Source of the DNA: Nymphaea colorata | Taxonomy: Eukaryota; Streptophyta; Magnoliopsida; Nymphaeales; Nymphaeaceae | DNA: 64,000 nucleotides | NCBI RefSeq assembly: GCF_008831285.2 | Contig: NC_045138.2 | Span: forward strand, 15,781,934 to 15,845,933 | Reading direction: 5' to 3' | Shown here: positions 18,729 to 54,700 of the stretch, one piece after another | How positions within the stretch are numbered: the first letter of the stretch is position 1 | Layout: every line of letters starts with the position of its first letter | Translations under genes and position numbers: made by a program | The notes under the pieces: model-generated | What the model was told of the DNA's origin: nothing | The model's input: the letters and a program-made list of their open reading frames with translations, nothing else | Database searches by the model: none

Positions 18729-20205
18729 AACTCTATCGAAGCACTCTCGTTCTTGGCCAACTTCTTTTTATTGGTGCAAATTCTAGATAATTGTAGAGGT
18801 AACCGTAGCTGGTGGGCTTGAGTTTGTGTTTCCATAGACAATCTTAGATACAGTTTGGTATATTATTCTTTGCAAACCTATGGCAGATATTGTACCAATT
18901 ACTGAAAATTTGAGAAATTCTTTTGATCATGAAATAAGTGCCTAGTTTTGAAGAAGGATTATGGATTCAAACAAAAAATGTGGTTAGACCAGTTTTTTTG
19001 TGATTTTTGATTTGGGTCGTGCATGCCTAGTCAATACCGTTTGATGTAAATCGTGTCCTGAATCATGAATATCATGACGATCGTGATTTAGGGCCTTCTA
19101 TTCGAAAGGTGCATTATATCTATAAGTATTGGCCTTGCTGTCTTTCCAGTTTTTCTGTTTGTTACATGAAAGAACCCATGCACATGATTCAATCGCTTGT
19201 GGATTTTGGTAACTTTGATTTGTTTCTTCTTCTCCTATGTCTCCCTCTCTCTAAAGTTTCAGAGATGGTCCTGAAATATCCCATTTTCGGCACCTTCCCT
19301 TTTAACTTTGCCATGAAAACAACTATTAGTATTAGGTTATGATTTTGAATATGGCGATCGATTGAGCAATTTTACCGGCGATAGAACGACCAATCGATTT
19401 GTTTGATGACGACTCCTTAGACCTTACAATGGGCAAAACAAGTGCCAACATGGTTGTATGTATGTTCCTTGACCCGCTGGACTAAGACATCTTGATCTTA
19501 GAGTGTGACGCTTGATAGGCTAAAGAAAAAGAAAGTTCTTCTTCTTGCGTCTGCCGACACAAATAATTCATCAGGAAAAATCATAATCTAATAGTTGTTT
19601 TCATGGCAAAGTTAAAAGGGAAGGTGCCGAAAATGGGATATTTCAGGACCATCTCTGAAACTTTAGAGAGAGGGAGACATAGGAGAAGAAGAAACAAATC
19701 AAAGTTACCAAAATCCACAAGCGATTGAATCATGTGCATGGGTTCTTTCATGTAACAAACAGAAAAACTGGAAAGACAGCAAGGCCAATACTTATAGATA
19801 TAATACACTTTTCGAATAGAAGGCCCTAAATCACGATCGTCATGATATTCATGATTCAGGACACGATTTACATCAAACGGTATTGACTAGGCATGCACGA
19901 CCCAAATCAAAAATCACAAAAAAACTGGTCTAACCACATTTTTTGTTTGAATCCATAATCCTTCTTCAAAACTAGGCACTTATTTCATGATCAAAAGAAT
20001 TTCTCAAATTTTCAGTAATTGGTACAATATCTGCCATAGGTTTGCAAAGAATAATATACCAAACTGTAAGTAGCAGAAAAAAAGTCTAAGATTGTCTATG
20101 GAAACACAAACTCAAGTCCACCAGCTACGGTTACCTCTACAATTATCTAGAATTTGCACCAATAAAAAGAAGTTGGCCAAGAACGAGAGAGCTTCGGTAG
20201 AGTTA
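18729..20205. repeat. Foldback: inverted repeat with arms of about 620 bp and 230-bp loop
   Basis: The left arm (18729-19346) is the near-perfect reverse complement of the right arm (19576-20205); the loop is 19347-19575. Identical short frames appear on opposite strands (MHYIYKYWPCC... at 19109+ and MYYIYKYWPCC... at 19808-), which shows how similar the arms are. The outer 270 bases of each arm equal the inverted ends of the 4.6-kb elements, so the foldback joins two element ends head to head plus 350 bases unique to it. The right arm overlaps the left end of the first 4.6-kb element. A transcript through it would form a long hairpin. Confidence 0.92.
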
Positions 20206-21379
20206 TATCCGAATTCGACTTTTAAGTTATATCCAAATACATCCGAATCCAATTTATGACTTTTAAGCCATATGTAAATCTGATCCAAATCTGATTTATG
20301 TACGAAAAATATATAGTAAACATTAAATGAACTATGAAACCTAATCTTAACATCACACTAGCTCAAACTTGATTGTCAAACTTCATTCTCTAATTCTGTT
20401 TTAAAACATTGAATCAATGCAAAGAGCTCCTGCTTTGGCTAATTATGTTGAGAATAAAAGCAAAACAGCAACTAGTAGTTCTGCAGGAGTTGTTGTGGAG
20501 AGAAAGCCCTTTCGGATCATTGCCAAACCTAAAAACATAGATAAGAAAATGTATGCTGTTATTACTATGGCTACTACAAAAGACTGACCACAGAAATGCA
20601 GCAGATTAGAGGACGCAACCTAAGTCAAAGATCCTGTACATCGATGAAATGGTTACTGAAATCATGCAAGTCCCCCACCAAAGAATAAATAGTTCATGCA
20701 AGCAACACAGACGCGATGCATTTGCAAACAAATTTAAGGACACCCACAACTATCATCTTATGCAAAAGCATCTCACATGGCTTTTGCAGAAAACACAACT
20801 GTCAATGAGATGAGAGGCGAGTGAAACAGAATATTCTGGTGCAAGTCAATAATAAAAGGCCACATCTGAAAAACAATTGAATAAACACTACTAGTACGTG
20901 TTTATTTGCTTTAGCATGAGAAAAATCAATACTTCACATAATGCAAAAATGTTTAAAAGCCTCTTGGTATCAAGCAAATTGAGGACAACATAACTGGAAC
21001 TCGTAAGTCTGAAGGAGAAATCTAACGTGAAAAAGAAGGGAATTCTTTGAATTTTTTTATAAACTAATGGTGAAATTTTTCCCTGTAAACCAGCTCCCTT
21101 GATGTTGAAGCATGCGAAGTATAGTAAGAGAATTCCACAATATCCACGTCACACCAAATGCCTCCAGGACCCTAGACAAGAAAACTGGAAAAGAATCACT
21201 CTCAGGGGAAAAACTAAGACACACTAGTCATCATATAAGAACTATCATTCATGTTGACAGACACAAAAAGCCAAAAAGAAAGCCATTACGTTGTCTGCAT
21301 GTTATACAACAGGAGGAAAAATCTGCCGAAGAACAGAGTTTCTATATCTAGGCCATGATGTGATTCAATCATTCATTGG

Positions 21380-21990
21380 CCCTTCGATGATTAACGCTAA
21401 GGTTTTTAGACTTGCATAGCATCTTTAGCCGGTGATGCACTTGAGAAGTAGAATCCCCACCTGGGCATTAACCAAATCAAATAACTACAGCTCCCAAAAC
21501 GGCACCAACAAAAGCAAATGAATGCATAACCCAGGCGTCTTCCTGTATAAAACACACAATCAACAATGAAAACTCCATACAATATTTATGGCATACGAAT
21601 CTAAAAAACACAACATGGTACCATAAATTTAATACCTAAAACCCTTACATGTTATTATCCAAATCCAACAACCTAAAACCCCAACATTGGCATGAATCGT
21701 ATTCAATAATTAGAAACACCCAACTTGGCACTAAAAAAGTACGACGGCAAACCAATACTACAAGCTTTGTTGGCAAGACTTGCAATCCAACAACCATCGC
21801 CTGTTAACCCTTCCAGGAGATGAAAACTAATATGGCAGGTATGTCTCTGAGAGCGCCCTTCCTTATAAGAAACCTGACGGCGGTGCAACGCTGTATCGCC
21901 TTAATATCTTGCTGTGAGAGGCCCTGAAGGAGGGCGAAACAAGACAGGAGGATGCATATGGAGGCACAGTACACTAAAAAAAACCAGACT
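21380..21990 (-). pseudogene. Captured gene-like segments, membrane-protein character, in copy A
   Basis: On the minus strand two stretches read like exons. One (about 21990-21830) contains VYCASICILLSCFALLQGLS then QQDIKAIQRCTAVRFLIRKG. The other (about 21543-21475) reads EDAWVMHSFAFVGAVLGAVV and then meets a stop. Both are hydrophobic with sensible composition. Copy B carries the same stretches with different frameshifts. I do not recognise the family. Conservation of sequence but not of frame between copies says these are non-functional captured pieces. Confidence 0.4.
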
Positions 21991-23862
21991 TGATTGAACT
22001 GGATGGCCGCCTCAGCATAGACATGAGTACTATTTTGCTAAAAAATTATTTTAAATAAAAGATAAACATCCTAATATATTTATGAAAATTATTTTGATAT
22101 AAAACAAGTTTTGAATCTGGTTGTTTTTATGAAAAATATTGATTTCTTTTACCAAAATGTTGATGCTTTGAGAGCAATTCATTTTTGCTTATTATAAAAC
22201 ACAATTACAAAAAAAAAAAAAATTCGACATACAATATATTGTACATCAGCCTAAGATCACATTGGTAAGATTAGATTTCAAAAAAACACTTTAAATATAA
22301 TATTTAAAGGGATAATGAAGTAGGTCTATGGATGAATGCCCAATGAAGCTTGGATTCTCTATCATCCTTGTGAATAGTGGTGGTGCCTGGGGTGGATTTT
22401 CCATTTTATATACGTATCACCAGCTTGTTGAATTCCAATTGTCGATAAGATTTGTTTCTTTAATTAAAGACTAATAAATTATTTTTAATCCTATATTTTT
22501 TATTTCCAAGTTCTAATAAGATTTCTTTCCTAAATGAACAGATTCATAAATTATGTTCTATTCTTACCATTCCATTCCCATTTTTAACAAGATTTCGTTC
22601 TTAAATGAAAATATTCATAAATTAACTTTTAGTTTTACCTTTATTTACTGTTCTAAAGGGCTTAATATGGTTGTTTAAGCTTTTGGTGAATAAGGTCTTC
22701 CTTTATTAGCCAGCATTATATCTCTGTGGTGTATGAGTAGAGACGTCAACCGACAGGATTCAACACATATATACCCTTAACCGTATCTGCTTTTGCATAT
22801 ATTTACAAACTCTCATTCTAATACGAACTAAGAAAAGTCACATCTGAATTCGAACCCGAAACCCAATTTCGTAATCTGAATCTGAATTTTACATTTATAA
22901 CCAAATCGGAATACCGAATTTGAGCAACTTTAAAAATGTAAGAGTATCAGATACAAGATGTATGTTTAAAAATAAATAATTCGATTTGAATCTGTATCTA
23001 ACAGGATATTCATTTATATCTGAATCTGTATTTGAATCCAAGCAGATGTCATTTCTTAAATCCAAATATGATCTATTTTTTTAATTAGATAGTAAATTTT
23101 CCTTCATATCCAATTTTTTTGGAATGGTTCTGTTGGACATCTGATCCAAATCAAATACACTGACATCCCTACATATGAGGAGTCGCGAGGTACCTAATTG
23201 ACAATGTTTTCGCTACGTCAAACCCAGATGTAATTCTTTGCCTTATTGACGATGGAAAAGAGGGAGTTTTTAGTTCTCAAACAATTAGATTTGTGAATAT
23301 AAGCACAAGCTGTGCTTGGGAGTTGGATGACCTAGCTAGGTCAGATAAAAGTGAATCACATTAAAGTTTAATTACACACACACCCACAAATATATAACTA
23401 ATTAATTGAAAATGTTTTTCTCCACTTATATGTTAAGAAGGCGTTAATTATCCACCAGAAGAAATTATCACAAATTATGATGTGGCGATTGCTCAGAAGA
23501 AATTATAAAAAATTATGATGCGGTGATTGCATTAGACATGACCTTCTCTAATGCAAACGCACCATTCTAAGCCTGTTACCATACATATATCAAGTCAGCC
23601 CAGCTTGGCCTAGCTAGATAAGAGCCGATCCATCATCGTGTGGCTAATTCACACATTAACAAAGACGGGAATAGCAAGAGATAATGATGGAGACATGAGA
23701 CACCAAATGCCTTGCCAAGTAGGTGCTGCAAAGGTGACATGTCATCTCGAGTGAATAGAAAGCTCAATGACCCCCTTTCCCAACTTTTGAAGTTGTGGGT
23801 TGCACCGGGGATTTGAGTGGGGTACGGGCTCTCTCGTTCTTGGCCAATTTCTTTTTATTGGG

Positions 23863-24105
23863 ATATTTGGCATTTAGTTGAAAGTGGATTCACCAAATTC
23901 AGAAATCCAAACATCATTCACAGACAGCCCTGTGCATATAAAAAATGGCGACTCTGGGTATGCAATCCACGTTATATATGGAGATATTTCAATTATTTTT
24001 GCATGGACTTGTTTTAAGGATTGGATCTACTAAAGATTTGATTTAGTTTTAACGACTCTTTTTTAGTATAAGTAAACTTCGTTGGAATTCAACATGCGAA
24101 TTCGG
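23863..24105. repeat. About 245-bp insertion splitting the right inverted end of copy A
   Basis: The left arm reads CGTTCTTGGCC.A.TTCTTTTTATTGG directly into TGCAAATTCTAG (reverse complement of 20150-20190). In the right arm the same words are separated by about 245 bases; copy B has the same interruption (about 33090-33345). The insertion therefore predates duplication of the element. Confidence 0.6.
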
Positions 24106-24533
24106 TGCAAATTCTAGATAATTGTAGAGGTAACCGTAGCTGGTGGACTTGAGTTTGTGTTTCCATAGACAATCTTAGATTTTTTTTTTTTTCTGAAAAA
24201 TTTCTGCTAATTACAGTTTGGTATATTATTCTTTGCAAATCTATGGCAGATATTGCACCAATTACTGAAAATTTGAGAAATTCTTTTGATCATGCAACAA
24301 GTGCCTAGTTTTGAAGAACGATTATGGATTCAAACAAAAAATGCGGTTCGTCAGCTGGATCAGCGGCTCCGCCGATTGGGTGAATTGGGCGATTCACCCA
24401 TTCAGCTGAATCAGTTAATTAAAAATATTAAAAAAAATTTGTTCATAACTATAAACCATTTACATCCATGATAATTTGTTTGCTTAATCAACTGAGGTGG
24501 TGTTGGCACTCATCTTTTGTAGATAGTTATTAA

Positions 24534-26313
24534 CATGAGGTACTAGTTGCATGCTTTTTTCAATTCCTGATTTTGGAAGGTACTCGGACTTATTTCGACT
24601 GGTTTTTTTTGTTTGAAGATGTGGGGAAGAAGAAATGCGATATATTTATTCAGGACAGGACATGCAAGATTTACTGAAGAATATTGAACCGTGAACCATA
24701 CCTAAAGAACAAACGACTGACATGATCCACCTAGATGATTTAAGACTTTAAGTTGCTTGCCACGGGGTCCATCTTTTGTTGTATATCTCATCTCGGGGAG
24801 TTGCGTGAAGAAGTAATGCCGCGACACAGGTTCACACAAAGGGATACTTTTCAAAAACAGGTTGTTCCTTCCACAGATTTGATTTGCAATCTGGGTGGGT
24901 TGAAGTTGTGTTAAGGAAAGAGTTTGTTTTTAGTAGCCATTCCAGCTCCTACCCTAACGTATATGCATATATAGAGGCCAACTTGAACAGCTTCCGCGTA
25001 GTCATCCCAGAGATACCATTTTCTCCTTTAGATCTGATCGTAAAGTTTTCCAAATCAGTTTATTATTTTTTCCATCTCTCGACACATTCAATTTTTAGTC
25101 TCTTTATGCCCATCCAATAACGTAAAAGCTGGAGGTTGGCTTGGGTTGATGAGTGGCAGGATAAAAGAGAAAGACGATCGACGTTCTGGTTTCAAGAACA
25201 CCTTAACCGAAGAAAGTAAAAAATCTTTCTTCGAATGCATAAATGATTTTCAGTGAAACTAACGGTACAAATGTGACAATGAAGGTACAGCCTCTATTTC
25301 CACCAAACGTCTGAATCAAGTTGTTTTACAGGCCTATATGTGCCGGTGCAGCTTATTTCACTATAAATAGAAGTTTTCTATACTGCTAGGAGCTCTGCCT
25401 CGATCGACCTGGGCTTTCGGGGCAACCTTAGAAGACTCAAGCCCAGCTCCGTACAGTCTTCTCCTCGACCATTAGCAATTGTTGATTGCTACAACCAGAT
25501 CATACTATCTATTTCTGTATCTGACAAACTTTTCAAGTGGACGACGACGTCATTAATATATGATGTTTTTATGTAAATTACTTGTTTATTTAAATATTGC
25601 TTTTGACTTTTTGTATGTATATATATATATATACGCACACCTTTTTGTATCCCGGTACCCATATGACGGAAGCCGGTGATTTACTTAAAATATATTTGAA
25701 ATAAGTTAAAATGTTTCTTTTTTCTGAAAATTTTATTTAATTAGGTGCATTTTTTCAGTGGGGAACTTACTGCAGTTTTTCTTTTAAATTTCACATTTTC
25801 AGATCATAACAATTATATTGTCTTCAAGTCATGTACTTTCGAAAACACGATAATAATAAATGTCTTACAACAAGAGTTTGTTATTGTCCTATGAATCTAT
25901 TAAAAGGAGTAAAACAGATTCTTGAATTAATACGACATAATGTTTGTAAATACTGTGCACAATATTAACCTCAAAGAAGGCCTCTGTCCTGTTCTTACTG
26001 TCTCATTAAGACTACAAAAGGAGCTTAATAACAGTAAACGATATTGATTTTAGACAAGAAAATCGAATATCATGTAAGCATGCAATTATTGCAAAACTTA
26101 GTAAATTATATTTATAAATGCTAAGTTGAAACTACCATCTTGGCCGCACAACATTGTTCAGGTTTAGAAATTAAGCTTTCATTATTTTTCCTTTTGGTGT
26201 AAGAATTATTTGGATTTACTTGTTCTTTTTATAAATATTGTTCATGGCTTTCATGGCTTAAGACAAAGATGTGAAGTAAAAAACGAGTTAGGTGAGAGGA
26301 TTACGTACACTAC
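24534..26313. other. Intergenic, no gene seen
   Basis: A stretch at about 24855-24900 is the reverse complement of 29134-29185 beside copy B, so more rearranged repeat lies here. An (AT)n run is at 25617-25633. No coding signature. Confidence 0.45.
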
Positions 26314-27664
26314 GTATCTTATTAATATCCCTGAAAAGAAAAGAAGGCCCAACAAAGAAAAAAATAAATAAAATGGAGATTGGAGAAAGGAACAGAACGT
26401 GGTTCCGAAGAGAGAGTGAAGGCAAGAGATGCAGTTAGAGAGAGAAAAGGGTATAGAAGATTGAGACTTGAAGTAGGTCTAAAGTCTTCTTCTTCCTCTC
26501 CCTCTCGGTTTCTTAATTTTCCTCCGCCTCCTGACAGTGGGGATCGAGGAAGATCACCTGTAGTTGTTGGTAGGAGGCAAAAGAGATCGCTGGAAGAGCT
26601 GAAACTCCACACTGAACCAGCTTGCATGGAAGCTGAAGGATCTGTTACCGAGACGGAGAAGCCGATAGAGGGTGGAATCAAGCTGAAGATCAAGATGAAA
26701 GCTCAAGGCTCTGCAAGAAGGAATTTCCGTCCTTGAAGTCACTGTTCGGTCATATGAGGTGCCATCCAGGCAGGGACTGGAGGGGAATTCAGCCGCATGA
26801 GAGGTTCCAGAGCTCTATAACAGACCATGGGGCTCGGAATAAGAACGACAATCGGTGTCGTGGTGGTGCTACGAGATGGGATAGCTTTTCGTATAGAAGA
26901 TTCGATCCCCGGACCTATTGATTGACCATAGATGCGAACCGATCTACCGCTATCTTAGAGAAGAGAATTAGTTCTTCTATCGGGAGAGAACATGCAGCGG
27001 CTTACCTAGAGAAAAAACAAACCAATTCTCAAAGCAAAGGTAAGGTTGAGAGAGATCTTTTTCCGTCTCGGGGCAGGGCGAAAACGAACATATAGGACTG
27101 ATCTTCCTTATGCTACTGGTCTCAAGCTGCTCAGTACTCCCCTTCCTTAAAGGCCCTCTCTTCTTGTTTCTTTTGTGTCCGGCGGCTGAATTCCCCTCCA
27201 GTCCCTGCCTGGATGGCACCTCATATGACCGAACAGTGACTTCAAGGACGGAAATTCCTTCTTGCAGAGCCTTGAGCTTTCATCTTGATCTTCAGCTTGA
27301 TTCCACCCTCTATCGGCTTCTCCGTCTCGGTAACAGATCCTTCAGCTTCCATGCAAGCTGGTTCAGTGTGGAGTTTCAGCTCTTCCGGCGATCTCTTTTG
27401 CCTCCTACCAACAACTACAGGTGATCTTCCTCGATCCCCACTGTCAGGAGGCGGAGGAAAATTAAGAAACCGAGAGGGAGAGGAAGAAGAAGACTTTAGA
27501 CCTACTTCAAGTCTCAATCTTCTATACCCCTTTCTCTCTCTAACTGCATCTCTTGCCTTCTCTCTCTCTCTTCGGAACCACGTTCTGTTCCTTTCTCCAA
27601 TCTCCATTTTATTTTTTTTCTTTGTTGGGCCTTTTTTTTTTTTCCAGGGATATTAATAAGATAC
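26314..27664. repeat. Foldback with 483-bp arms carrying a C2H2 zinc-finger gene fragment
   Basis: The left arm 26314-26796 and right arm 27182-27664 are near-identical reverse complements; the loop is 26797-27181. Within each arm the frame CKKEFPSLKSLFGHMRCHPG followed by RDWRGIQP (26712-26795 plus; 27266-27183 minus) matches the plant ZAT-type C2H2 finger, where SLFGHMRCHP and W-R-G-I are diagnostic. The first zinc Cys is replaced by Ser and the upstream Ser/Pro/Glu-rich reading frame is in another phase with a stop before the finger, so the fragment is not functional protein. In the right arm the coding sense may continue a short way into the loop. No terminal motif or target duplication was seen. 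Confidence 0.9.
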
Positions 27665-27706
27665 TTAAAGTGGATCATTGTTTGTTTAAAATTTAAATAG
27701 CGGATC

Positions 27707-27790
27707 ATGGCGAGAAGATGCACCCTCTACCTGAAGGTTGTGAAAGAAGCCACTGGGGAGAAATGGAGTGAGGAGATGTCTTCAAACTAG
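27707..27790 (+). pseudogene. Phytoglobin exon 4 fragment
   Basis: The plus-strand frame reads LYLKVVKEATGEKWSEEM and then stops three codons later. It matches the H-helix start of plant globins and the exon 4 piece at 34.2-34.3 kb (GFLKVVKEAVGGKWREEM), but on the opposite strand and cut after EEM. No other globin exon lies nearby. It sits 43 bases from the foldback's right arm. Confidence 0.6.
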
Positions 27791-29018
27791 TGTAAGTTTC
27801 CAACATTTATATCTAATCTGTAGGAATGCAAATTGATCAAATCTGAATAGGCTAAATACACAGGAAACCGGATCCGGTACATCCATATAAATGGAAGAAG
27901 GCCCCCTCTACAAAGCCGATCAGCCTCCTTATTGTTAAGGACATTTTAGCCATTGACTTGGTACCTCAATGTCATACACGTAGGTGCCAACTCCGCCTAC
28001 TTAAGACAATGATAATATTTGACTCGTCCAAGGGCATTCTCGGCATTGTGAAAGTAGAAAATTTTTTGCCTGATTTTTTTAAAATAAAACAAACCTATAT
28101 ATATATATATGTGTGTGTGTGTGTGAGAGAGACGGGGAAGCTGAGAACCGGATCTAACTGCATCCTCTCCTCAATGTAAAAACCATTATTACAAAATTAA
28201 ATGTTTATTTACACAGTAGTGAATCTTTCTTGACACTTATTTAAAATCGAGGTTATCAAACACAGTATCATGCATGAAATGAAATTACGGACAATGGCAT
28301 AAGTGGGGCAAGTAACTTAAAGTTATTGTTCTCACAACTATTTTTTCAGAAATATATTTTAAATTTTTATCCAGTTCTACTGACTGTATGTCTAGTTTTT
28401 TTGTTTTCTAGGTTCCTTATGAGGTTCATCACTGTATTATATAAGAGTGCTGGGTTTTCTAAAATCAATTCTATATTAGTTCTGATATTTTCGGTTGGTT
28501 CTTTTATTGTTTTGCTACTTTCTATTGTCATCCTTTTATCTGGCACGTTTGCTTGTTGTGGATGTTCTAGAATTTTTCCGATTATCCTCCCTAAGGTTTC
28601 TTGCTGCTGCTTTTCTAAATTCTTGTTTGTTCCTACTTAGAATCTTGGGTATCGTTCTAATGTACACTTTTTATGCTTGAAAAAGTAGTCTTTCTTCTTG
28701 ATTTCGCAATCACTTAGTCATCTTATTAACCTCACCATATGACATCATTTCCCCGTGCAGACCTTTTGCCTTAATGGGTACTCTCTGGCCTCAGTCTCTT
28801 GGTTTCTAAGAGTTCGCATTCTACTATTACTACCAATATAAAAGATACAATTCTCAACATGCAAGTTCGTGCATACAAACAAACCAACTACCTAAGCATG
28901 AACATACTGAAATGAGAAAAATATCAACAAGTTTGCCTTGGGGAAGATACTAGTTTATTCCATAGAACTGAAAGCAAAGTACATAAGGACATTTTTACAT
29001 ACCATTACTTCAGACTCT
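27791..29018. other. Intergenic, microsatellite and T-rich sequence
   Basis: A (TA)n(TG)n(AG)n compound microsatellite lies at about 28098-28131. The T-rich stretch 28320-28680 produces a long hydrophobic frame from composition alone. No gene seen. Confidence 0.5.
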
Positions 29019-29081
29019 ACTCTTCTTCAGAAGCAATCATGCTCCTTACATCTACATCAGAGGGAGTATCCTCCATATCTG
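29019..29081 (-). pseudogene. Possible last exon of an unidentified gene
   Basis: On the minus strand a CCCAG acceptor is followed by a frame reading DMEDTPSDVDVRSMIASEEE and a stop. Acidic composition and the splice-like border make it look like a C-terminal exon. The upstream sequence is repeat copy B, so any parent gene is interrupted or absent. Family unknown; this could be chance. Confidence 0.2.
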
Positions 29082-29207
29082 GGATTTACAATATATATGT
29101 GATACTAGCATTGCAACTTTAAGCAAAAATAGCCACCCAGATTGCAAATCAAATCTGTGGAACAACCTGTTTTAGAAAAGTAGCATTGGAAAGCCTTTGT
29201 CAATGTA

Positions 29208-32200
29208 ACCACATTTTTTGTTTGAATCCATAATCGTTCTTCAAAACTAGGCACTTATTCCATGATCAAAGGAATTTCTCAAATTTTCAGTAATTGGTAC
29301 AATATCTGCCATAGATTTGCAAAAAATAATATGCCAAATTGTAATTAGCAGAAATTTTTCATAAAAAAATCTAAGATTGTCTATGGAAACACAAACTCAA
29401 GTCCACCAGCAATGGTTACCTCTAAGATTATCTAGAATTTGCACCAATAAAAAGAAGTTGCCCAAGAACGAGAGTGCTTTGATAGAGTTATATCCGAATC
29501 CGACTTTTAAGTTATATCCGAATCAAATTTATGACTTAAGACATATGTAAATCTGATTCAAATCTGATTTATGTACGAAAGATATATAGCAAACAATAAA
29601 TGAACTATGGAACCCAATTTTAACATTACACTAGCTCAAACTTGACTGTCAAACTTCAATCTTTGGTTTTGTTTTACAAAACCGAATCAATGCAAAGAGC
29701 TCTTGGTTAAGCTAATTATGTTGAGAATCAAAGCAAAACATCAACTAGTAGTTCTGCAAAACCTACCATTAATGCAGGAGTTGGAGAGAAAGCCCTTTCT
29801 GATCATTGCAAAACCAAAAAACGGAGATAAGAAAATGTATGCTGCTATTACTATGGCCAGTACATAAGACTCACCACAGAAATGCAACCGATTAGAGGAC
29901 GCAACCTAAGTCAAAGATCTTGCACATCGATGAAATGGTTACTGAAATCATGCAAGTCCCCCACCAAAGAATAAACAGTTTGTGCAAGCAACACAGACGC
30001 GACGCATTTGCGAACAAATTTAAGGACGCGAGTGAAACAAAATATTCTGGTGCAAGTCAACAATAACATGCCACATCAAAAAACAATTGAATAAACACTA
30101 CTAGTAATGGTGTTTATTTGTTTTAGCAAGAGAAAAATTAATACTTCACATAATGCAAAAATGTTTAAAAGCCTCTTGGTATCAAGCAAATTGAGGGCAA
30201 CATAACTGGAATTGGTAAGTCTGAAGGAGAAATCTAACATGAAAAAGAAGAGAATTCTTTGATTTTTTTTATAAACTAAAGGTGAAATTTGGCAGCGAAA
30301 GAGTTGGGATGTATTATGGAGCAACAGTAGTGACACCTGAGAACCAATTTGGCAGGACCAATTTGTGGATCACTTCCTCTTAAGCCCGCTACAAGCTCTG
30401 TGAAAACTTGTTACATTGATGTTGAAGCATGCAAAGTATAGTAACAGAATTCCACAACGTCCACATCACACCAAGTGCCTCCAGGACCCTAGACAAGAAA
30501 ACTAGAAAAGAATCACTCTCAGGGGAAAAACTAAGACACACTAATCATCATATAAGAACGATCATTCACGTTGACAGATACAAAAAACGAAAAAAAAAAA
30601 CCATTACGTTGTCGACATGATATACAGCAGGAGGAAAAATCTGCTGAAGAACAGAGTTTCTATATCTTGGCCATGACGTGATTCAATTATTCATCGGCCC
30701 TTCAATGATTAACGCTAAGGTTTTTAGACTTGCATAGCATCTTTGGCCTGTGATGCACTTGAGAAGTAGAATTCCCACGAGGACATTAACCAAATCAAAT
30801 AATTAATGCTCCCAAAAGGGCACCAACAAAAGCAAATGAATGCATAACCTAGGTGTCTTCCTGTATAAAACACACAATTAACAATGAAAACTCCATACAA
30901 TATTATGGCATACGAATCCAAAAAGCACAACATGGTCCCATAAATTTAATACCTAAAACCCTTACATGTTATTACCCAAATCCAACAACCTAAAACCCCA
31001 ACATTGGCATGAATCTTATTCAATAATTAGAAACACCCAACTTGGCACTAAAAAAGTCCGACGGCAAAACCAATGCCACAAGCTTTGTTGGCAAAACTTG
31101 CAATGCAACAACCATCGCCTATCAACCCTTCAAGGAGATGAAAACCAATATGGCAGGTACGCTTGTGAGAGCACCCTTCCTCATTACGGCGGTGCCAATG
31201 CTGTAGTGCCTCAATATCTTGCTGTGAGCGGCCCTGAAGGAGGGTGGAACAAGACAGGAAGGCACATAAGGAAGCGTAGTACACTAAAAGAAACTAGACT
31301 TAATTAAACTCGACGGCCACCTCAACATAGACATGAGTACTGTTTTGCTAAAAAGTTATCTTAAATAAAAGATAAACATCCTAATATATTTATGAAAATT
31401 ATTTTGATATAAAACATGTTTTGAATCTGGTTTTTTTTTATGAAAACTATCGATTTCTTTTACCAAAATGTTGATGCTTTGAGAGCAATTCATTTTTGCT
31501 TATTATAAAACATTATTACAACAAAAAAAAAAATAATCAACATACAATATATTGTGCATCAACCTAAGATCATATTGGTAAGGTTATATTTCAAAAAAAC
31601 ACTTTAAATATAATATTTAAAAGGAGAATGAAGTAGACCTATGGATGAATGCCCAAAGAAGCTTGGGATTCTCCATCATCCCCGTGAATGGTGGCGGTGC
31701 TTGGGGTGGATTTTCCATTTTATATACGTATCACCAACTTGTTGAATTCCAATTGTTGATAAGATTTCTTTCTTAAATGAAAGATTAATAAATTATTTTT
31801 AATCCTATATTTTTTCTTTCCAAGTTCTAATAAGATTTCTTTCTTAAATGAACAAATTCATAAATTATGTTCTACTCTTACCATTTTATTTCCAATTTTA
31901 ATAAGATTTTGTTTCTAAATGAAAATATTCATAAATTATCTTTTAGTTTTACCTTTATTTACTGTTCTAGAGGGCTTAATATGATTGCCTAAGCTTTTGG
32001 TGAATAAGGTCTTCCATTATTAGCTAGCATTATATCTCTGTGGTGTAAGAATAGGGACACCAACTGATCGGTTTCAACTCAAATATACCCTTAATCGTTT
32101 ATTCTTTTGCAGATATTCACAAACTCACAATTCGAACCCAAAACCCAATTTCGTAATAATCTGAATTTTACATTTATAACCAAATCAGAAAACCGAATTT

Positions 32201-33780
32201 TACCAACCTTAAAAATGTAAGAGCATCGGATATGGGATGCGTGTTTAAAATAAATAATTCGATTTGAATATGTATCTAATTGGATATTCATTTATATCTG
32301 AATCTGTATTTGAATTCAATCAGATGTCATTTCTTAAATCCAAATATGAAATGTTTTTTTAATCAAATAGTAAATTTTCCTTCATACCCAATTTTTTTGG
32401 AATGGTTCTGTTAGACATCTGATCCAAACCAAATACACGGACAACCCTACATATGAGGTGACGCGAGGTACCTAATTGAGAGTGTTTTCGCTACGTCAAA
32501 CACAGTTGCAACTATGTGCCTTATTGGCGAGGGAAAAGAAGAGGTTTTTAGTTCTCAAGCAATTAGATTTGTGAACAGCAGCACAAGCTGTGCTTGGGAG
32601 TTGGATGGCATAGTTAGGTCAGATAAAAGTGAATCTCATTAAATTTTAATCACACACACAAATATATAACTAATTAATTGAAAATGTTTTTCCCCACTTA
32701 TATGCTAAGGAGACATTAATTTATCCACCAGAAGAAATTATCACAAATTATGATGCGGCGATTGCATTAGACATGACCTTCTCTAACGCAAACGCACCAT
32801 TCTAGGCCTGTTACCACACATATATCAAGTCGGCCCGGCCAGATAAGAGCCCATCCATCATCGTGTGGCTGATTCACATTAATAAGGACCCGAATAGCAA
32901 CGGATAATGATGGAGACATGAGACACCAAATGCCTTACCAAGTACGAGCTGCAAAGGTGACATATCATCTCGAGTGAATAGAAAGCTCAATGACCCCCTT
33001 TCCCGACTTCTGAAGTTGTGGGTTGCATCGGGGATTTGAGTGGGGTACGGGCTCTCTCGTTCTTGGCCAATTTCCTTTTATTGGGATATTTGGCATTTAG
33101 TTGAAATTGGATTCTAAATCCACCAAATTCAGAAATCCAAACACAATTCACAGACAGCCCTGTGCATATAAAAATGGCGACTCTGGGTACGCAATCCACA
33201 TTATAATTGGAGAGATTTCATTTATTTTTGCATGGATTTGTTTTAAGGATTAGATCTACTCAAGATTTGATTTAGTTTTAACGACTCTTTTTTAGTATAG
33301 GTACACTTCGTTGCCAGTCAACATGTGAATTCCAGATATTGGTGTAAAATCTAGATAATTGTAGAGGTAACCGTAGCTGGTGGACTTGAGTTTGTGTTTC
33401 CATAGACAATATTAGAATTTTTTCTGAAAAAATTCTGCTAATTACAGTTTGGTATATTATTCTTTGCAAATCCATGGCAGATACTGTTCCAATTACTGAA
33501 AATTTGAGAAATTCTTTTGATCATGAAATAAGTGCCAAGTTTTGAAGAATGATTATGGATTCAAACAAAAAATGTGGTTTCACATCCGGATCAGCGGCTC
33601 CACCGATTGGGTGAATCGGCCGATTCACCCATTCAGCTGAATCAGTTAATTAAAGATATTAAAAAATTTGTTCATAACTATAAACCATTTACATCCTTAA
33701 TAATTTGTTTGCTTAGTAAACTGAGGTGGTGTTGGCACTCATCATTTGTAGATAAGATGATAGTTATTAACATTTTTATT
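29208..33780. mobile_element. 4.6-kb long-TIR element, copy B
   Basis: Same orientation and order as copy A, with inverted ends at 29208-29450 and 33345-33585. The left edge is sharp: homology to copy A begins at the TAACCACATTTTTTG word and the outside sequence differs. Copy B has about 130 bases absent from A (about 30290-30420) and lacks an A segment (about 20745-20835) that is kept in the fragment at 38340-38508. Homology to A runs about 190 bases past the right inverted end, through a palindrome at 33609-33630. No transposase seen. Confidence 0.7.
30724..31290 (-). pseudogene. Captured gene-like segments in copy B
   Basis: Counterpart of the segments in copy A. The first stretch (about 31290-31200) reads VYYASLCAFLSCSTLLQGRS then QQDIEALQHW; the second (about 30870-30800) reads VMHSFAFVGALLGALII before a stop. 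Frames differ from copy A by small indels. Family not recognised. Confidence 0.4.
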
Positions 33781-50815: not shown

Positions 50816-51735
50816 ATGGAGCAGGAAAGGGGAGCAAGGCACGATAATGAACAACACACTATCTTGCAAGGCAGTGATGGATCTTTGCACAGACTTGTCG
50901 TGCACGAGCAAGGTAATCCCAATCTCAAGATTACTAATACCTTGCTTGATGGTCTCAATTATTTACCTTGGTCTAAGGCAGTCACTCGATTCCTTAGTGG
51001 AAAATCTAAACTCTGATACATTCATGGTACCTCAAAGAGACCACCACTCAATGATCCGAAATATGGCGAGTAGCGATCAACCAATGACACTGTTGCGTCT
51101 TGGCTCATCAATTCGATGGAGCCAAAGATAGCAGCCTGTTTGAATTTTCTAGACACGCTGAGGAGGTGTGGCAAGCTACCAAAGATCTTTACGGTGAACA
51201 ATATAATATTGCTCGCATGCACCAACTGTCTCAAACAAAAGGAAGTCTAAAGAAAGGGACGACCCCTATTAACGAATATATTGGCACCTTTAAAGAAATT
51301 TGGGATGAGATAGATGTCCATTCTCCATTGACTACCGATCTTTCTATAGCTAAGAAGCAACGTGAACAAGAGCACATATTTGAAATTCTTGTTGGGCTTC
51401 CAAATGACTACGAGAATCTTCGTAGTCAAATTCTCATGGCACATGAGCTACCTTCGCTAAGTTCAGTTTGTGCCCTTCTTATACGAGAAGAGTCAAGAAG
51501 AAAGGCTATGGGCACCTTAAACTACAACGATCAAGATGTGTCAAACGATGAAAAGGCAGCTTTTGTTGTAAACGGTATAGATAACAGAAATTTCAAAGGT
51601 AAACGTGATAATGACAGAAAACTTAAATGCTCATACTGTAAAAGAATTGGCCATTCTCATGACACATGCTGGTTTATCCATGGAAACCCTGACAGAGGTA
51701 TAAGTCATACCTCCAAGACCACCTCAAATGGGTAA
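50816..51735 (+). pseudogene. copia gag, frameshifted
   Basis: Opens with MEQERGARHDNEQ, then a UBN2-type gag region (LLDGLNYLPWSKAV), breaks near 51016, and resumes in another frame to 51735. The zinc knuckle is CSYCKRIGHSHDTC followed by WFIHG, of the C-x2-C-x4-H-x4-C kind. A stop at 51733-51735 separates it from pol. Confidence 0.85.
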
Positions 51736-54700
51736 TCTAAGAAAGAAAACAATTTCAGTGGGATAATCAAGAAGGAGAACAATCAGACCAGTCTTATAAC
51801 TTCTTCATCAGACAAGCCTATCACATTGGAGACTCTTGCTGAAATGATAAAGGAACTCCAAGCAGAAAAGACCGCAGGTATCACCATCAACTCTTCCGAT
51901 TACACTAAAGGTATGGCCTACGTCTCTTGTCTTGATTCTAGCTGTCATTGGATAGTCGACTCAGGAGCCACAGATCACATTGCTAACCAATTTACTCACC
52001 TCTATACCTCTCACCCTATTGACGGCATTGGACCAGTTGCTGCAGCCAACGGAATGCCTATTGCCGTCAAAGGAAAAGGAGGAATAGACTTTTTTAACAA
52101 AAATTACACTAGTGAGATTCTTGTCATGTCTTAACTTAAGTTTAATCTACTGTCTTTAGCAAAAATTACCAAAGAATTAGATTGCAATGTGGTTTTTTCC
52201 GCTACTAACATTGGATTTCAGGATCGAAAGACTCAGACGATGATTGGTGAGGGGCACCAAGTGAATGGACTCCACCAAATCAAAGTTCCTCATCAAGCTT
52301 TGAATGTGGCTTCCACAAATGAGGGAGAGATCTGGCATCAACGGATGGGTCGTCCATCCACTCGAACGTTAAATTATCTTTTTTCCAAGCATTATTTTGA
52401 CAATCACACATGTGATATTTGTAAGTTTGCTAGAATGACTAGACCAAAGTTCTCTTTATCTGATTCTATTAGTGAACAACCATTTGATCTTATTCACTTT
52501 GATGTTTGGGGTCCTGCGCCTGTAGATTCTTTGGATGGATTTAAATATTATGTTATGTTTATTGACGATTTTTCCAGATCCACTTGGGTTTATTTTATGA
52601 AAAACAAATCTGAAGCACTCTTTCATTTTCAAAATTTTTATAAGATGATTGAAGTTCAATACAACTGTAAAATAAAATGCTTCAAGTCTGATAACGGTAC
52701 TGAGTTCAAAAATTCTGGTTTCAAAACCTTCTTGGACGAGCATTGCATACTACATCAAACACCGTGTATTGACACACTTCAACAAAATGGCATTTCTGAA
52801 AGAAAAAATAGACATATTTAAGAAGTTGCTAGAAGGATGTTATTTCAAATGCATGTGCCTAAAAACTATTGGAAATATGCTATCTCCTCGGCTTGCTATG
52901 CGATCAATAGAACTCCTAATAAGCATCTTAATTATGCTAGTCTTATTGGCAAACTTACGGGTCATGAACCAAAACTTGATCATTTGCGTGTGCTTGGTTG
53001 TATGGTTTATGTGTGGCTACACTATGCAAAAAGAGACAAACTTAGTCATCGCCCAACCAAATGCATTTTTGTCGCCACAACTCACAAGGCAACGAGTATG
53101 TATGTTTTGATCCTATTACTAAGAAAACCTTTATATCTCGTGAAGTTCATTTCAATGAGAAACAACCCTACTTTGGAGTCAATAATTGTGATATAGGACA
53201 TGGGGAGTCTAATTCTCCTAACTTGCATGATTTTGATGATTTATTTTTTACCATAAGTGATGAATGGGTTACTAGAGAAACTCTTTTAGAAACTGAAAGT
53301 CACTCAGAAAATCAAGAACCTGTTATTACTACGGATGGTGATGAACCCTTACGGATGGTGATGAACCCTCTAACCAAGAACTTAGAAGATCTGAGAGAAT
53401 TTGAAGATCGCCCTCTCATCTAACAGAATATGAGACTTATTCCTGCAGTCATTATCTCATCAGCAATTTTGTTTCTTATGATAAGATTTCTACTTAACAC
53501 ATCAACTTCATCAAAAGTCTTGATAAAATTAGTGAGCCTCAAACTTTTCAAGAAGCTAAGAAGGACTCAAATTGGAGAAAGACAATGGAAGAATAATTAG
53601 AGACCCTAAATCGCAACAAGACTTGAGAGATTGTTACAAAACCAAAGAATTCTAACGTTGTTGGTTACAAATGGCACTACAGAGTCAAATACAAGAGTGA
53701 CAGCTCACTAGAAAGATACAAAGCATGTGTAGTAGCCAAGGGATTTACTCAAACAAAAGGACTGGACTATGATGAAACTTTTGCTCTTGTGGCAAAAATG
53801 ATACATTAAGGATTCTCTTATCTTTGGCCAGTAACCTGAACTGGGGACTCCATCAACTAGACATGAAAAATGTCTTCTTGCAAGGTGAATTGAGTGAAGA
53901 AATTTACAAGGCACTTCCTCCAGGGCATCCAGATGAAGGGAAAAATTATGTGTGCAGGCTCAACAAAGCTATCTATGGTCTGAAACAGTCTCCTAGAGCG
54001 TGGTACCTGAAATGAAGCATGACCTTAAAAAACTTTGGATATCACCGATGTCACTCTGACAATACGCTCTTCATAAGGAAAGGCAAAGAACACATCATTG
54101 TTGTGTTAATTTATGTGGATGATATAGTAGTGACAGGTGACAATGTTGAAGGCATACATAATCTCAAACAATACTTGAGAACCACATTTGATATAAAAGA
54201 CCTAGGGAAACTCAAGTATTTTCTCGAAATTGAGATAGCCCAATCACACAAAGGCATCTTCATTTGTCAAATAAAATATGCACTTGATATATCAAAGGAA
54301 ACTGGAAAGATGGATGCACGTCCTGCCGACACTCCGTTTGAAACAAATCTCAAATTGGGATCATGTGAGGATGAACCAGAGGTCAACAAGGAAGTATATC
54401 AACGTTTAGTTGGTAAACTTATTTACTTATATGTCACTAGACCTGATATTTCGTTTGCAGTGAATATGAGTAGCAGGTACATGCAAAGCCCAAGAGAGTC
54501 ACATATGAGAGCTGCATATCGCATTCTTCGATACATCAAAGGCACTCTTGGACAAGGACTCTGGTACAAAAGGAATCAAAACTTAGATACAGTTGCATTC
54601 ACATATGCAGATTAGGCTGGAGACATCGGTGATAGAAAATCAACTACAAGATATTGTATCTTTGTCGGATGTAATCTTGTGGCATGGAAATGCAAGAAAT

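Follow-up and report, generated by a model that had tools for sequence, protein, structure and literature searches.

How does a plant genome assemble an inverted duplication of a gene fragment, and does the product become a silencer of the gene from which it was copied? This question is raised by a foldback in the water lily Nymphaea colorata, found on contig C1 within a stretch of 64,000 nucleotides (C1:15781934-15845933, hereafter the window), which was compared with the whole genome (783 contigs, 407,766,735 bases), its contigs being designated here by the letter C and a number. The inverted-duplication model explains how a gene becomes its own silencer, and rarely how the duplication was built. 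At this locus nearly every piece has a nameable source (C14, C8 and the mitochondria), the original arm can apparently be distinguished from the copied one, and the loop serves as a clock. We favour, with a probability of about 0.7, an origin of the patchwork in the repair of a break, in which filler DNA was taken up and the copying strand switched template, followed by fold-back copying.

The sequence-only reading of this stretch had described a foldback with two near-identical arms of 483 nt separated by 385 nt, and its coordinates proved to be exact to the base (Table 1); on the contig it occupies C1:15808247-15809597. Gapped alignment of the arms (26311-26796 against 27667-27182) gives 97.5% identity over 489 columns and 99% over the inner 388 nt, the differences amounting to five substitutions and three small indels. 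The long duplex foreseen for a transcript across the locus is borne out by RNA fold prediction, in which, for the native sequence alone, 478 of the 483 bases of the left arm find a partner no more than 6 nt from the mirror position, at a predicted minimum free energy of -1069.6 kcal/mol for 1351 nt. As far as fold prediction goes, the locus has the stem-loop of an inverted-duplication MIRNA or hairpin-siRNA locus. Fourteen control pieces of 10 kb, each from a different contig, contain no inverted pair with arms of at least 150 nt lying within 3 kb, whereas the window contains two by the same criterion. A foldback of such arm length is not attributable to chance, and two in 64 kb against none in this small control hint at a hot region. 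Inverted arms can also arise as long-read artefacts. A false palindrome of assembly or library is scarcely credible here, where the arms differ from each other as given above, a diverged piece of mitochondrial DNA lies between them, the two flanks differ from each other, and the window contains no N.

Table 1. Window positions of the features of the patchwork and of the neighbouring second foldback.
Feature	Position	Strand	Description
Second foldback	18729-20204		arms 18729-19334 (606 nt) and 19584-20204 (621 nt); 6 kb from the first foldback
C14 fragment	25815-26334	+	C14:1824940-1825679, minus strand; 87.7% over 309 columns, 95.2% over 230
Left arm	26314-26796	+	first about 18-20 nt from the C14 block, remainder from the C8 block
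C8-captured block	26332-26815	+	C8:17408816-17409636 (approximate), minus strand; 91.3% over 379 columns, 98.1% over 108
Seam patch AGCTCAAG, 8 nt	26700-26707	+	at the 339-bp skip
13-nt junction between the C8 and mitochondrial matches	26816-26828		no source assigned; last few nt may be mitochondrial
Loop	26829-27182	+	mitochondrial, C782:159468-159828, minus strand; 90% over 369 columns
Right arm	27182-27664	-	26314-26796 copied inverted

The left arm has six matches in the genome, namely the two arms themselves, two pieces of a gene on C8, at 91% and 99%, and two pieces of its paralogue on C3, at 88% and 80%. The C8 gene is the related intact C2H2 zinc-finger gene, with enough identity to be targeted, that had been anticipated as donor. 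It has an open frame of 489 codons (about 455 from the first ATG, counted by eye) with four zf-C2H2_6 stretches (Pfam, E 2.9e-31), and both arms resemble this protein-coding gene along their length. The captured block contains the donor leader and the start of the coding region (donor-locus positions 1565-1938, reverse complement), skips 339 bp (1939-2277) and resumes with part of the second finger (2278-2385). The finger motif seen by eye in each arm is recognised by Pfam in both as zf-C2H2_6 (E 6.4e-8 and 4.6e-8), over positions 7-25 of the 27 in the profile, though the finger is broken: the donor sequence AVCVLCKKEF reads SSRLCKKEF in the arms, and the first cysteine of the pair is therefore lost. 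A protein-coding role of the arms was considered and rejected on account of this cysteine and of the longest ATG frame (121 codons, 27242-27607, minus strand), which follows the donor leader frame at its start and ends before the finger frame. The paralogue (C3:26664322-26664867) has an open frame of 527 codons and a conserved leader stretch, beginning GACTTGAAGTAGGT, in common with the C8 gene. The gene capture originally proposed is upheld, the arms being captured pieces of a C2H2 gene; the locus is, however, not a simple inverted gene duplication but a patchwork of C14, C8 and mitochondrial sequence in which the C8 block occurs a second time in inverted orientation.

The internal structure of the C8 block bears on how it was copied. 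The seam patch AGCTCAAG together with the next letters GCTCTG copies a 14-mer which occurs once in the 5.4-kb donor locus, at position 1870, the template of the patch lying about 70 nt upstream in the donor region, and the patch may be regarded as the mark of a template switch. At first sight the 339-bp skip resembles a missing intron, as would be left by a processed mRNA copy (retroposed cDNA). In the 489-codon donor frame, however, the skipped stretch is coding; it does not end in AG, and the patch is templated. For these reasons the skip is not splicing, and its reading as intron loss is rejected. The captured block moreover ends in the middle of the coding region, and neither introns removed at splice sites nor a poly(A) tail, the features of a processed pseudogene, were found at the locus, which makes a processed copy highly improbable. 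The captured fragment might still conceivably have come from a cDNA, no intron being recognised in the donor sequence that it covers.

Upstream of the C8 sequence lies the C14 block, which differs from its source by 28 substitutions at 517 aligned sites and lacks 202 bp of C14 at about window position 26104. It has no other copy among the matches listed (40 of 150 candidates), and no gene was recognised in the open frames listed at its source. About 80 nt upstream of the foldback the block contains the TATA-like stretch TATAAATA (26230-26237), also present in C14, for which a promoter role is conceivable. The C14 similarity runs unbroken from upstream of 26314 into the left arm, and the outermost 18-20 nt of either arm come from C14. 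The border of the foldback is therefore an arbitrary point inside a captured block and not the end of an element; it may mark where a copy run, after reading in reverse through the C8/C14 joint, came to a stop. The 20-mer at the edge has exact matches at the two arm ends and nowhere else; with two mismatches allowed it also occurs at C14, C6 and C11 (one match for the reversed control pattern).

These edges are of importance for the possibility that the arms are the terminal inverted repeats of a transposon, i.e. a MITE, a foldback element or a Pack-MULE, which captured a gene fragment. A long repeat with 245-nt inverted ends is present on both sides of the patchwork (19931-24536 and 29206-33773), the second foldback includes one end of this repeat, and Pack-TIRs are known to capture unlinked fragments with microhomology (PMC8277862). 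Against a transposon, the foldback edge falls within the C14-derived block, no target-site duplication is visible by eye (the left end is preceded by ...CACTAC and the right end followed by TTAAAG...), the end 20-mer has no further exact copy in the genome, and the arms occur elsewhere only at the C8 donor and its paralogue. Terminal inverted repeats were rejected on the grounds of the C14 block crossing the arm edge and of the unique end 20-mer, and a transposon origin is on the whole very unlikely. The patchwork does not lie inside an element formed by the flanking repeats either, since the repeat ends facing it are outward-facing.

The two copies of the flanking repeat, about 4.5 kb long, match each other at 88-93% and contain the 245-nt inverted repeats inside, the similarity extending about 190 nt beyond the right inverted repeat. 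A target-site duplication is not clearly visible by eye, and the first copy has no long open frame (five of at least 70 codons, none above 85). Elsewhere in the window, at 51100-54615, open frames resemble by eye a broken Copia-type retrotransposon polyprotein. The arms of the second foldback are 96.5% identical over 622 columns, the inner 481 nt being identical at about 100% with two mismatches. They contain the first 273 nt of the long repeat (copy at 19931-24536) and a fragment of C5 (88.5%), and the loop comes from C9 (81%). About 40 nt are skipped inside the C5 fragment as well, and at one joint the matches to C5 and C9 have 11 nt in common. With its skip, its overlap and its arms and loop from different chromosomes, the second foldback is counted in favour of the repair and fold-back explanation.

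The loop of the first foldback derives from C782, a contig of 617,195 bases, which is the size of the Nymphaea colorata mitogenome given in PMC6092842, and which we take to be the mitochondrial DNA of this species. The loop differs from this source by 15 substitutions at 347 aligned sites and has shorter matches (33-73 nt) to seven further loci in the nucleus and to one more in the mitochondrial DNA. Homology to the plant's own mitochondrial genome, as in a NUMT, is thus present in the loop. The joints are of the kind found in filler DNA, with unlinked pieces connected through apparent microhomology or a short templated patch: the C14/C8 joint has 2-3 nt of apparent microhomology, and the right arm joins the mitochondrial piece via a GG shared by mitochondrial DNA and the reverse strand of the donor. 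The shortness of these microhomologies counts against the repair explanation.

The relative age of the pieces can be read from their substitutions. The three sources give similar ages, with 4.3% for the loop, 5.4% for the C14 block and about 4% for the C8 block, and with the C3 paralogue as outgroup seven of the eight positions readable by eye had changed in the arms and one in the donor. The left arm runs 19 nt (26797-26815) further along the donor than the right arm, for which reason the left is taken as the original and the right as the copy. Against the sources, 17 substitutions are common to both arms and five are present in one arm only. Were the arms as old as the loop, about 41 differences between them would be expected (P of five or fewer 1.4e-12), on the assumption that all loop changes occurred on the nuclear side, mitochondrial DNA being little changed. 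From the shared and unshared substitutions it follows that most changes predate the second arm, or that the arms were homogenised later.

Later homogenisation, in which the arms were made together with the insertion and then kept alike by gene conversion between them, is quite possible, if doubtful. It would account for the excess of shared changes, for an inner part almost without differences (one in 348 nt) and for the clustering of four of the five differences within the outermost 135 nt (P 0.024 by a binomial test; by Fisher's test 0.039 for substitutions and 0.0025 when indels are included; the 135-nt cut was chosen after the data were seen), as conversion of the inner part would produce. 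The shared changes are, however, about equally dense in both parts, with four in the outer 135 nt and 13 in the inner 348, and conversion would need to span nearly the whole arm. The outer part is rich in simple A and GA runs. Late copying of the second arm, as suggested by these counts, is preferred over conversion; it must assume that the end of the mitochondrial piece was set by the same event.

Break repair followed by fold-back copying would then have proceeded in two steps. In the first, fragments of C14, of the C8 C2H2 gene and of mitochondrial DNA, for all of which the homology is evident, would have been joined on C1 as filler at a break, in an order that we infer; the copying strand may have skipped and switched template, leaving the 202-bp and 339-bp skips and the templated patch of 8 nt. 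In the second, to which the arm comparison points, a break at the mitochondrial piece would have allowed the end to fold back and prime on the C8 block through the GG shared at the joint, to copy in reverse the C8 block together with about 18 nt of the adjoining C14 sequence, and to be joined to the right flank. The outcome would be the 483-bp inverted duplication with its mitochondrial loop. The insertion and its order are deduced from homology and were not seen directly, since no pre-insertion copy was found: the matches of the flanks and the C1, C13 and C6 loci share no common place, and the left flank (24924-25785) and the right flank (27731-28089) have 73-92% matches to other loci only, for the left flank among the matches listed. 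Part of the left flank (24924-25534) resembles, at 69-87% among the matches listed, a sequence that recurs many times within C6:6.62-6.83 Mb. The locus would be explained by the known processes of filler DNA, template switching and fold-back copying, with source pieces that appear unusually complete.

The remaining question is whether the foldback could act on its donor. Of the 482 21-mers of the left arm, when the arm is extended to 26815, 163 match the C8 donor region perfectly, as do 183 of the 463 of the right arm, in which perfect donor matches reach lengths of up to 101 nt; to the C3 gene there are few, seven per arm. If transcribed, the long near-perfect hairpin would be expected to yield, on dicing, a mixture of siRNAs that match the C8 gene and not a single miRNA, as in the accepted model a young perfect stem with a nearby promoter gives mixed siRNAs and not a miRNA (PMC1790633 and PMC10004981). 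The sequence-only reading had also suggested a MIRNA-like locus, which could not be upheld, since the duplex is long and close to perfect and the gathering score was reached for none of the Rfam families. Rfam gave four matches at E up to 1 in window positions 24000-29500, the best being MIR2118 with 24.8 bits against a gathering score of 85, and no known MIRNA family is thereby matched, new families being absent from Rfam. Among the literature matches listed for Nymphaea colorata small RNA and miRNA no small-RNA map was recognised, although one may exist.

An active hairpin-siRNA locus or MIRNA founder, in which a promoter from C14 drives a transcript that folds and is cut by DCL into siRNAs silencing the C8 gene, is unlikely. 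The near-perfect 483-bp stem, the perfect donor matches in the right arm, the TATA-like stretch shared with C14 and the accepted origin of such loci by inverted duplication of the target gene (PMC1790633 and PMC10004981) are all consistent with it; on the other side, the open frames listed next to the source on C14 include no recognisable gene, and the near-identity of the arms is accounted for by recent copying or conversion. Since silencing would need a nearby promoter, and the open frames listed where the C14 piece originates show no recognisable gene, an inert scar without transcription is the more likely state of the locus. Less probable still is a wider reading, by which the region repeatedly makes foldbacks with arms and loop from different sources and a recent copy, and the hairpin with its promoter-like C14 piece yields siRNAs that tune the C8 gene; this would represent a two-step birth of a silencing locus with every source piece readable.

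Should small RNAs arise from the foldback, it would be a readable early stage of a silencing locus; should there be none, it would be a clear example of filler-DNA repair and fold-back copying in an early-branching flowering plant. Comparable systems are known on both sides. In Arabidopsis, the origin of young MIRNA loci from inverted duplication of a protein-coding gene was reportedly described by Allen et al. in 2004. Natural inverted repeats with demonstrated silencing include maize Mu killer, rice Lgc1 and the soybean CHS cluster. Like these three, the water-lily foldback is an inverted duplication of part of an expressed gene; unlike them, whose silencing is demonstrated, it is known from sequence alone. 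With the young MIRNA and hairpin-siRNA loci of Arabidopsis (PMC1790633 and PMC10004981) it shares arms that copy the coding gene which would be the target and a long near-perfect stem of the early stage, here predicted; it differs in that flank and loop are of other origin, the loop being mitochondrial. Pack-TIR and Pack-MULE elements, for which PMC8277862 describes gap filling with template switching, likewise capture unlinked fragments with microhomology, whereas the patchwork is not bounded by element ends or a target-site duplication. The NUMT filler DNA at double-strand breaks of plants (PMC7037861) and primates (PMC2567098) resembles the locus in that a few hundred bp of mitochondrial DNA lie at a repair seam with short microhomologies; in the water lily, two fragments of nuclear chromosomes are joined to it and an inverted copy follows.
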